Source: Alkalihalobacillus sp. CinArs1
GTDB lineage: Bacteria > Bacillota > Bacilli > Bacillales > Guptibacillaceae
Reading direction: 5' to 3'
Length of the DNA stretch: 64,000 bases
NCBI RefSeq assembly: GCF_947387515.1
Contig: NZ_CANDOB010000002.1
Coordinates: 1-64,000 of the forward strand
Shown: one piece after another, positions 53,745-56,572 of the stretch
Layout of the letters: each line of letters begins with the position of its first letter
Numbering within the stretch: the stretch's first letter is position 1
Notes under the pieces: generated by a model
Databases searched by the model: none
Seen by the model: the letters and a program-made list of their open reading frames with translations, nothing else
What the model was told of the DNA's origin: nothing
Made by a program: the position numbers and the translations under genes

Positions 53745-53779
53745 AAAAAAGCGAATCCAGCAGTGGATTCGCTTTTTTT
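53745..53779. terminator. Bidirectional terminator
   Basis: AAAAAAGCGAATCCA-GCAG-TGGATTCGCTTTTTTT; serves the GNAT gene and the convergent sulfolipid operon. Confidence 0.9.
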
Positions 53780-54236
53780 AATTTTGATGTTGCTTCTTCG
53801 TACGAGGAAAGACGATATGCTTCATCATAAAGAAACTTGAGGCGGAAGAAAGAAACATCGCGAGCCCTTTTGCGATATTCCGTTCGATATAGTTTGGGAA
53901 CGAGAGCCATTTGAGGTCGAACAGAAACAGAGCACCATAGAATACGAGGTTACTGACTCCAAGAGCGATCACGGCTTGTATTAAAAACAGGATGACCTGC
54001 TTTCGGTCATGAATGGCTTTGGAAGGGAAGGTTAGCTTCGCATTCCAAAAGTAGCTGTTTGTGATCGCGAGTGTATATGCAATTGTGTTGTAGAAAATGA
54101 GCTGGATTCGATCATCTGTTGGAAACAACAGCATGAGCAGGTTGAGTGCGCCAATATCCACTAGAGCATTCATGATGCCGATCGCACTAAAGCTTATTAC
54201 CTGCTTTGAACCTTTGCCTATTTGACTCTGTTTCAT
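53778..54236 (-). CDS. GtrA-family membrane protein
   Basis: 152-aa protein with four membrane helices; FSAIGIMNALVDIGALNLL and ITNSYFWNAKLTF are GtrA landmarks. GtrA proteins are thought to help move lipid-linked sugars. It is the last gene of a three-gene operon behind a GT4 glycosyltransferase (14-nt gap) and sqdB, so a role in glycolipid placement is possible but unproven. Confidence 0.87.
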   Translation of the reverse strand: MKQSQIGKGSKQVISFSAIGIMNALVDIGALNLLMLLFPTDDRIQLIFYNTIAYTLAITNSYFWNAKLTFPSKAIHDRKQVILFLIQAVIALGVSNLVFYGALFLFDLKWLSFPNYIERNIAKGLAMFLSSASSFFMMKHIVFPRTKKQHQN

Positions 54237-54250
54237 AATTTAACCTCTAT

Positions 54251-55396
54251 CTATTGGATCGCCTGCTGTCCTTCTTGCTCCTGACCAAGATCTAGTGCTG
54301 ATTCGTAGATATCGAGAAGCTGCTGAGCAGGACCGTGCCAGCCGAAAGCTCTTGAATGAGAAAAGGCTTGTTTTGACATGCGTTTGAGAAGGTCGTCTTC
54401 CTCTAGTCTGGAGATGGTACTTGTTAAGTTCCCATCTTTACCAGATTGATAAAGAAGACCTGTTTCCCCGTCTTCTACTTGTTCGTTCGTCGGACCCGAT
54501 TCCGCTGCGATGACAGGAAGACCACTCGCCATTGCTTCTAAAATCACAAGTCCCAATGTTTCTGTTGTTGATGGGAACATGAACGCATCTGAGGAAGCGT
54601 AGGCCGTTGCAAGCTCTTCACCATGCATAAAGCCTGTGAATGTCACATTGCTTAAGTGAGAGAAGTTCTTCTCAAGCTCTTCTCTGTACGGACCGTCTCC
54701 AATGATCGCAAGGTGAGCGTCTTGCTTTTCCTCCAACATCGGAATCAATGTATCGATTTCTTTCTCAAATGCGAGGCGTCCAACAAAGAGGAGAAGCGTT
54801 TTATCAGCGTTTCCGTTCGTTAACCGCTCTCTCATTTCCTGATTACGGAGTTTCGGGTTAAACCTTTCTGTATCGACGCCACGTTTCCATAATTGAACGT
54901 TATAGAAGTTTTGCTCATTGAGTTCTTCTAATATAGCTTTTGATGTACAGAGGTTTAAGTCTGCTTGATTGTGCATTCTTCGAAAATGCCACCATAGAAG
55001 GGGCTCCGCCCACGGTACATTGTAGTAATCAGCATATTTTGGAGCATGCGTATGATAGGAAGCGATAAGAGGAACCCCGAGCTTCTTCCCATATTTAATA
55101 CCTGAATACCCCATGAATGCGGGATTCACGACGTGAACAAGGTCAGGGTTAAAGTCTTCAAGGTATGTTTTGATCAATCGCGTCGGCATTCCAAACTTTC
55201 GGTGCTTGTACAAGAAAAAGGTACGAGGCTTAACCCCATCGAAACGAATATTCCTATAGCTTCGTACCCCTAAATCTGGAGCAATAACTTGGATTTCATG
55301 TCCTTGATCGATTAAATAATCGATTGAAGCACGCAATCGTGTTACGACCCCATCTGTGGAGGGGAGGAATGTTTCAGTGACGATGGATATTTTCAT
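54251..55396 (-). CDS. GT4 glycosyltransferase, probable sulfoquinovosyltransferase (SqdX-like)
   Basis: 381-aa GT-B glycosyltransferase. N-terminal motif TETFLPSTDGVVTRL and YHTHAPKYADYYNVPWAEPLLWW, plus C-terminal LFVGRLAFEKEID and the EX7E motif in TETLGLVILEAMASGLPV. The N-terminal text and its place 27 nt after sqdB point to the SQDG synthase that moves sulfoquinovose from UDP-sulfoquinovose to diacylglycerol (cyanobacterial SqdX, plant SQD2). A plain mannosyl- or glucosyltransferase is the alternative. Confidence 0.83.
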   Translation of the reverse strand: MKISIVTETFLPSTDGVVTRLRASIDYLIDQGHEIQVIAPDLGVRSYRNIRFDGVKPRTFFLYKHRKFGMPTRLIKTYLEDFNPDLVHVVNPAFMGYSGIKYGKKLGVPLIASYHTHAPKYADYYNVPWAEPLLWWHFRRMHNQADLNLCTSKAILEELNEQNFYNVQLWKRGVDTERFNPKLRNQEMRERLTNGNADKTLLLFVGRLAFEKEIDTLIPMLEEKQDAHLAIIGDGPYREELEKNFSHLSNVTFTGFMHGEELATAYASSDAFMFPSTTETLGLVILEAMASGLPVIAAESGPTNEQVEDGETGLLYQSGKDGNLTSTISRLEEDDLLKRMSKQAFSHSRAFGWHGPAQQLLDIYESALDLGQEQEGQQAIQ

Positions 55397-55423
55397 AGTT
55401 ACACCTCTCGTTTAGTCTTCGAC

Positions 55424-56572
55424 TTACTTCCAAGTAACGTTCGGAAGTACATTTTCTTTTAACACTCTATCTTTGTATTTAAGCGCAGTATCGAGCGTAT
55501 TTGAAATGTGTTCATCTGTTAATAAGCATGGTTCAAGACCTAGGTCGATCAGGTTCGTGTTAACCGCATGATAATAGTGTTCTTCCTTCTCGACACGCGG
55601 ATTCTCCAAGTGATCGATCGAAATATTAAGTCCTTTCGCTTCTGCCACACGCTGTACTTTTTCAGCTAGTTCTAGGACAGAGAACTCTTCTGTAAACTGG
55701 TTGAAGACGCGGAACTCCCCTTTGTCAGCAGGGTTCTCTGCAGCGATTTCAACGCAGCGGATTGTATCTTGAATGTTAAGGAATGCTCTTGTTTGTTTCC
55801 CGGAACCGTAGACCGTTAAGTTATGGCCGATCGCTGCCTGAATGATGAACCGGTTCAATGCGGTTCCAAACACACCGTCATAATCAAGACGATTGATCAA
55901 GCCTTCATCCATGTCAGCTTCATCTGTATGAAGGCCATACACGATTCCTTGGTTCAGATCAGTTGCTCTGATTCCCCAAATTTTGCAGGCAAATTGGATG
56001 TTATGACTATCATGGACTTTTGAAAGGTGATAGAACGAGCCTGGCTGTTTTGGAAATGGAAGAACGTCTTCGCGCCCTTTGTGTTCGATCTTTATGTATC
56101 CTTCTTCAATATCAATGTTAGGCTGACCGTATTCGCCCATTGTGCCCAATTTTATTAAATGACAATCAGGTGTGACTTCTTTAATCGCATATAGTACGTT
56201 TAAATTGCCAACGACGTTATTCGTCTGAGTGAATACCGCATGTTCTCTGTCGATCATAGAGTATGGAGCAGAGCGCTGTTCAGCAAAATGAACGAATGCT
56301 TCTGGCTGTACTTGTTTGAAGATCTCTTTAAGAAAATCGTAATGCATTAAATCACAGTCATAAATATGGATGCGGTTGCCACTCTTTTCTTCCCAAAGTT
56401 TTACCCGTTCTTCTAGAGTTAGAATCGGTGTTAAAGAGTTTGAGCGGAGTTCTTCATCCCACTTGCGGCGAACCATGTTATCTAGGATCGTTACATCGTG
56501 TCCTTGTTTAGATAAGTAAAGCGCTGTTGGCCATCCGCAAAAACCATCTCCACCTGCAACAATAATTCTCAT
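55424..56572 (-). CDS. sqdB: UDP-sulfoquinovose synthase
   Basis: 382-aa extended short-chain dehydrogenase that makes UDP-sulfoquinovose from UDP-glucose and sulfite with bound NAD. Rossmann motif [15 protein letters not shown]144 (KLGTMGEYG), Y181 and K185 ([11 protein letters not shown]) line up within one residue with T145/Y182/K186 of Arabidopsis SQD1, and long stretches such as [12 protein letters not shown] and [12 protein letters not shown] are near identical. It heads the operon sqdB-GT4-gtrA. The frame opens at 56599; I start at ATG 56572 after TGGGGGT. Rare in Firmicutes. Confidence 0.95.

Follow-up and report, generated by a model that had tools for sequence, protein, structure and literature searches.

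We analysed a window of 64,000 nucleotides from Alkalihalobacillus sp. CinArs1 (positions 1-64000 of contig 2 in a 4.03 Mb genome, G000; other genomes and loci likewise carry G and L numbers), which holds a three-gene operon, sqdB-GT4-gtrA. To judge from its genes, this operon very probably makes the sulfolipid sulfoquinovosyl diacylglycerol (SQDG). SQDG is best known from plants and cyanobacteria. In the proposed pathway, SqdB with bound nicotinamide adenine dinucleotide (NAD) would convert uridine diphosphate (UDP)-glucose and sulfite to UDP-sulfoquinovose, as its homology and residues suggest. A glycosyltransferase of family GT4 would then pass sulfoquinovose to diacylglycerol (DAG) on the inner side of the membrane, consistent with its gene linkage, its nearest families and lipid data from relatives; the membrane protein GtrA may assist there, either in synthesis or with the finished lipid, which it could perhaps carry to the other side. 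The product would be a phosphorus-free anionic lipid. The three open reading frames (ORFs) are complete and lie on the minus strand in the order given, separated by 27 and 14 nt. A sequence-only reading of this DNA had described three such genes, 14-27 nt apart, and both their location and these distances were reproduced; its proposal of a sulfolipid operon in the Bacillota, here in the Pseudalkalibacillus group, likewise appears sound in view of SQD1 homology, conserved residues and strong gene linkage.

SqdB is most likely a UDP-sulfoquinovose synthase. It matched the two Arabidopsis SQD1 structures, 1qrr and 1i24, over residues 1-381 of 381 with E-values of 5.6e-161 and 6.1e-161, whereas the first PDB match beyond SQD1, a UDP-glucuronate decarboxylase, was weaker by ∼150 orders of magnitude. 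A full-length match to SQD1 at about 1e-161, against 3e-12 for the next PDB family, means that the identification is not due to chance. The catalytic residues T145, Y182 and K186 (SQD1 chain numbering) are kept in the window protein, as are R101, M146, E148, Y149, S180 and H183, so that the full SQD1 active-site set asserted by the sequence-only reading is indeed present; an NAD motif, GxxGxxG, occupies residues 7-13. The catalytic triad and most of the counterpart residues of the Sulfolobus enzyme Agl3 are named in the available text of PMC4388408. Among NCBIfam models, NF041015 (UDP-sulfoquinovose synthase) was by far the best (484 bits, E-value 3e-145). A quick tree was built from 51 rows, 31 of them SQD1-like (type A) and with neither other epimerases nor Agl3 included; in it the type A rows formed one clade (branch value 95, starred) with SQD1 as its sister at 89, on a long branch. 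The distance of SqdB from other epimerases is visible in the Pfam, NCBIfam and PDB searches rather than in the tree. The closest named SqdB is that of Alkalihalobacillus algicola AmN0-13 (97% identity); other close ones belong to Pseudalkalibacillus hwajinpoensis, P. spartinae and A. macyae. All 14 genomes of the window's genus code carry sqdB, and none was found in the single other genome of the family that was searched.

From its sequence and its tie to sqdB, we propose that the GT4 is the UDP-sulfoquinovose:diacylglycerol transferase. It passed the cut-offs of Pfam models PF00534 (117.9 bits) and PF13439 (99.8 bits). Its two top NCBIfam models are both lipid-directed, namely N-acetylglucosamine (GlcNAc)-phosphatidylglycerol synthase (172 bits, cut-off 480) and monoglucosyl-DAG synthase (108 bits, cut-off 400); both scores lie below cut-off and give no curated name. 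One motif of the GT4 may resemble plant SQD2; this likeness was not used as evidence. The linkage to sqdB was strong in two samples. A species-level genome collection yielded 206 stretches with SqdB relatives, of which the best 80 (69-97% identity) all held a GT4 homologue downstream of sqdB (46-91% identity), at a distance between match ends of ≤ 100 nt in 78 of them (101 nt in L099 and 1287 nt in L098). These 80 loci span Alicyclobacillus, Salinicoccus, Lentibacillus, Paenibacillus, Planococcus, Marinococcus, Desulfosporosinus and the actinobacterium Brachybacterium. The second sample comprised 397 genomes of the order, in which close kin are counted repeatedly and no species tree is applied (cut-offs: SqdB, E ≤ 1e-60; GT4, E ≤ 1e-75 and ≥ 52% identity; GtrA, E ≤ 1e-12). 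SqdB was found in 88 genomes and the GT4 in 88; both occurred in 87, sqdB only in G116, the GT4 only in G039, and neither in 308. G017, with a GT4 match of 39% that was excluded, counts under neither. Fragments of sqdB and GT4 adjoin in G116 (L208), and because pieces of both genes stand side by side, this exception reflects a broken copy or poor sequence.

A GT4 tree of 54 rows, which covers 16 of the 21 genomes with the second synthase type described below, united the sqdB-linked GT4s and that of G039 in one clade (99, starred) and left four other GT4s outside, including a 36% paralogue from the window genome itself. Residues such as T19, R20, L192 and L281 are conserved in the sqdB-linked enzymes and missing from the outgroups (100 of 102 sequences, two having been dropped as short or broken), but with just four outgroups no role in sulfonate binding can be claimed. 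The G039 gene, 55% identical and located at 69631-70728 of contig 1 (L196), stands in a genome with no detected sqdB. When plasmids were searched with the GT4 as query, no cyanobacterial match lay close to a sqdB. The 36% paralogue lies within L183:8043-11082 (G000 contig 1 near 676592), flanked by an undecaprenyl-diphosphatase-like gene and a nucleoside diphosphate (NDP)-sugar dehydrogenase gene (TIGR03026, 240 bits), and a second anionic glycolipid, e.g. glucuronosyl-DAG, is possible there.

The synthase itself proved to be of two types. The 88 sqdB genomes divide into 67 with type A (72-100% identity) and 21 with type B (44-47%), and the 12 type B proteins included in the tree formed their own clade (99, starred) within a branch of Sinorhizobium, Marinovum and Rhodococcus. 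None of the 21 type B genomes has lost the GT4. It adjoins the type B sqdB, with gtrA behind, in L177, L179, L199 and L200, and is distant from it or on another contig in G049, G316, G157, G206, G146 and G361. (The stretches beside type B sqdB in G049, G088, G206, G316 and G361, that is L176, L178 and L180-L182, hold no GT4 or GtrA match.) In the GT4 clade the partners of type B are scattered, requiring seven changes, of which starred branches force at least four. Both types also occur within a single genus code, G170 being type A and seven others type B; the SqdB and GT4 of G170 each have the same sequence as in Pontibacillus litoralis (L044). The scattered type B partners and the mixed genus code therefore indicate that the synthase was exchanged several times while the transferase stayed. 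Of the computed evidence, this exchange under a constant GT4 speaks most strongly for UDP-sulfoquinovose as a requirement of the GT4.

Brachybacterium (Actinomycetota) carries the pair of the Bacillota type in 11 loci (L098, L099, L105, L107, L109-L111 and L113-L116). Three of these were placed in the trees and stood beside Salinicoccus/Lacicoccus in both (92, and 99 starred), which suggests gene transfer. SqdB relatives of 41-50% identity are also encoded on 39 IMG/VR viral contigs (L137-L175). No GT4 match at E 1e-8 was present in the stretches of these contigs that were searched, and scanning viral sequences with the GT4 as query returned no relative.

The third gene follows the pathway closely. 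GtrA passed PF04138 with 58.1 bits (cut-off 26.1), and an NCBIfam scan gave no match. Its subfamily occurs in 63 of the 397 genomes, namely in 62 of the 88 with sqdB and in one of the 309 without; counted by genus, it is found in 26 of 31 sqdB genera and in one of 104 others. Because of this contrast GtrA probably belongs to the pathway, and because 26 of the 88 sqdB genomes lack it, it would be helpful rather than needed. In 54 of these 62 sqdB genomes the gene stands directly beside the GT4 (coordinates read by eye). It is elsewhere or on another contig in eight (G351, G391, G335, G018, G027, G233, G031 and G116), although in G031 it sits at a contig start, so that adjacency is possible. In G316 and G361 the GT4 and gtrA are together with sqdB elsewhere, and in the 80 named loci gtrA lies immediately 3' of the pair in 37. 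The sole genome of the sample with the GtrA subfamily and neither sqdB nor GT4 is G239 (contig 1, 968342-968767). The GtrA family is known chiefly for flipping polyprenyl-phosphate sugars, and a part in lipid movement is suggested, weakly, by this family membership. We know of no other candidate for an SQDG translocator. Tentatively, and with the odds against it, this GtrA subfamily could be dedicated to sulfolipid as a translocator (or membrane partner) that takes new SQDG across the cytoplasmic membrane. In a literature search covering titles and abstract openings, no link of GtrA to the movement of sulfoquinovosyl lipids was found.

Lipid data from relatives point in the same direction. Acididesulfobacillus acetoxydans INE (L091) has the same adjacent pair (SqdB 72%, GT4 53%, the next glycosyltransferase match 28%), differing from the window in that its locus shows no GtrA match. 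Sulfoquinovosyls were identified among the intact polar lipids of this strain by ultra-high-performance liquid chromatography with high-resolution mass spectrometry (PMC8982180). Bacillus coahuilensis is described in PMC4744853 as having sqd1 and sqdX, with membrane sulfolipids given as 'data not shown'; it thus shares an SQD1-like synthase and a glycosyltransferase with the window, the likeness being one of description. The 2008 genome study of that species (Alcaraz 2008) is cited in PMC12890257, PMC9594981 and PMC2890564. PMC4062624 names sulfoquinovosyl diacylglycerol for Oceanobacillus massiliensis, and a soil lipidome paper (PMC9969633) names SQDG and Firmicutes with no link between them in its available text. 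Among better-known systems, Arabidopsis SQD1 shares full-length homology, catalytic residues and the sister position in the tree, but is a plant enzyme, whereas the window SqdB is encoded in an operon with its transferase. Sulfolipid has reportedly been found in Alicyclobacillus too, as the sequence-only reading mentioned. Cyanobacterial sqdB and sqdX likewise pair a synthase with a transferase for SQDG (PMC3806779, in extract), and GtrA beside the pair is what was seen in the loci studied here. In Sinorhizobium meliloti (L119) a UDP-sulfoquinovose synthase homologue is followed by a glycosyltransferase gene, as in the window, but its SqdB is just 46% identical and falls in the type B branch. 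A Sinorhizobium-type transferase was considered and rejected, there being no GT4 match at E 1e-8 in the sqdB stretches of S. meliloti, Marinovum and R. rhizogenes; the Haladaptatus sqdB stretch gave a weak GT4 match (28% over 171 residues).

Several points weigh against synthesis of SQDG by this operon. The window SqdB, at 484 bits, misses the NF041015 naming cut-off of 575 bits, which was reached in none of 15 family genomes, 14 of them holding this SqdB. This cut-off is a naming threshold and not an enzyme property, and since both controls, S. elongatus and S. acidocaldarius, match the model and just one exceeds the cut-off, we regard it as strict rather than telling. The SqdB and GT4 trees are quick ones without bootstrap and with some long branches, and the likeness of the GT4 to SqdX is proposed by role and linkage, not by SqdX sequence. 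Since just the best 80 of 206 loci were kept, adjacency was judged on the nearest relatives, and in the window strain the pathway is predicted from its genes. Moreover, the supply of sulfite is unclear, because cysH, ssuD and a cysteine dioxygenase gene were not found. Specifically, PF01507 (CysH) was not detected in the window genome, G003 or G011, and TIGR02055 likewise gave nothing in the window genome; PF01507 was strong in 10 of the 14 genus genomes, with merely a weak match in a long protein of G001. Sulfite from alkanesulfonates or from cysteine dioxygenase was rejected as a source, neither SsuD (E ≤ 1e-60) nor cysteine dioxygenase (E ≤ 1e-5) being found in any of the 14. An operon in a genome with no detected cysH thus raises the question of where the sulfite comes from.

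Sulfoquinovose might alternatively enter a cell-surface glycan in the manner of Sulfolobus Agl3, with the GT4 acting on a polyprenyl carrier and GtrA flipping the product. The usual function of GtrA proteins, the flipping of polyprenyl-phosphate sugars, would suit this, and a PopT-like polyprenyl-phosphate transporter gene lies at 52237-53061 of the window (266 bits, below its cut-off of 400), separated from gtrA by one GNAT gene. PopT is, however, near sqdB just in the eight loci of this genus among the 80 searched (sqdB neighbours were listed by ORF in seven loci). Agl3 does supply N-glycans (PMC4388408, in extract), but SqdB groups with SQD1, far from two haloarchaeal rows in the tree that lacks Agl3, both top NCBIfam models of the GT4 are lipid-directed, and relatives with sqdB and a transferase contain sulfoquinovosyl lipid or sulfolipid. 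We regard a glycan product as very unlikely.

The same two NCBIfam models would also fit a GT4 that is a general glycolipid synthase (using, e.g., UDP-glucose and diacylglycerol) and stands beside sqdB by accident. Such an enzyme would be expected in genomes without sqdB too, so that the linkage counts (87 with both, one and one with a single gene, 308 with neither) speak against it, as does the retention of the GT4 with both SqdB types even where the genes are apart; we give this explanation hardly any credence. A relative of SQDG, e.g. a sulfoquinovosyl lipid that is acylated, ether-linked or carries further sugars, is unlikely as the product, though less so, and overlaps with SQDG synthesis itself. 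Core lipids of strain INE do include mixed acyl/ether glycerols beside diacylglycerols, and we know of no role for GtrA in known SQDG synthesis; against this, the three genes include no acyltransferase and no second glycosyltransferase. SQDG itself thus stays the best explanation.

We also inspected the region upstream of sqdB (Table 1). The ORF list starts sqdB at an upstream TTG (56599), whereas the start compatible with SQD1 is an ATG at 56572. A putative promoter-like motif, TTGAAT-N17-TATCGTAAAT, precedes sqdB in all 14 genus genomes, its end lying 56-58 nt before the ATG; in the window the second hexamer is followed by AAAT, which ends 56 nt before it. A promoter consensus scan (9 of 12 needed) does not list this site. 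At the other end of the operon, the terminator-like stem may serve the minus strand as well. The sequence-only reading had suggested that the lipid could replace phospholipid under phosphate limitation. A Pho box scan of 300 bp upstream (four TTHAYA repeats 11 nt apart; maximum score 24) scored 23-24 at pstS in 14 of 14 genus genomes and hence works in this genus. No Pho box was found in the 300 bp upstream of the window sqdB, where the score of 16 was matched by 92 of 100 first-order Markov sequences. Twelve other sqdB upstream regions of the genus scored 15-19 (reached by 10 to 100 of 100 Markov sequences), and that of L017 scored 22 at -287, a value that none of 100 attained. Judged against pstS, which served as the positive control, direct phosphate control of sqdB through PhoP is not supported, and the phosphate-limitation idea gains no support, although phosphate might act by another route. 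For B. coahuilensis a phosphorus-poor habitat was proposed as the reason for sulfolipids (PMC4744853, in extract), whereas the window sqdB lacks an upstream Pho box.

Table 1. Features of the predicted sulfolipid operon (window coordinates).
Feature	Position	Strand	Description
sqdB	55424-56572	-	382 amino acids; ATG at 56572; UDP-sulfoquinovose synthase, most likely, SQD1-like (type A); first gene
GT4 glycosyltransferase	54251-55396	-	381 amino acids; proposed UDP-sulfoquinovose:diacylglycerol transferase (SqdX function)
gtrA	53778-54236	-	152 amino acids; GtrA/DPMS transmembrane protein; proposed helper
Promoter-like site, TTGAAT-N17-TATCGT	56633-56661	-	putative; hexamers and spacing kept in 14/14 genus genomes
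Terminator-like stem	53744-53779	listed on +	16 pairs and T tail; between the end of gtrA and the converging GNAT gene

The sequence-only reading had held SQDG to be uncommon in heterotrophic Bacillaceae. This is contradicted by the count of 88 genomes with SqdB among the 397 sampled from the order and by the best 80 of 206 loci, with 69-97% identity, and also by the sulfolipid and the sqd1 and sqdX genes already in print for B. coahuilensis (PMC4744853, in extract). The operon is of an already known kind, commoner in this part of the Bacillota than that reading allowed. Two findings are, to our knowledge, new: one transferase has kept its place while the synthase was exchanged repeatedly, and a GtrA subfamily is tightly bound to the pathway. 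A literature search that in part came near these points found no report of either, which is no proof of absence. Genes like the window sqdB may lack a specific name, as they score under the NF041015 cut-off in all 14 genus genomes. For annotation, a well-supported transferase clade is now available. Collectively, these data make the genes for sulfolipid synthesis an ordinary trait of many Bacillota rather than a curiosity of phototrophs, and they offer an example of a pathway in which one enzyme was repeatedly exchanged while its partner remained constant, together with a testable membrane helper in GtrA.

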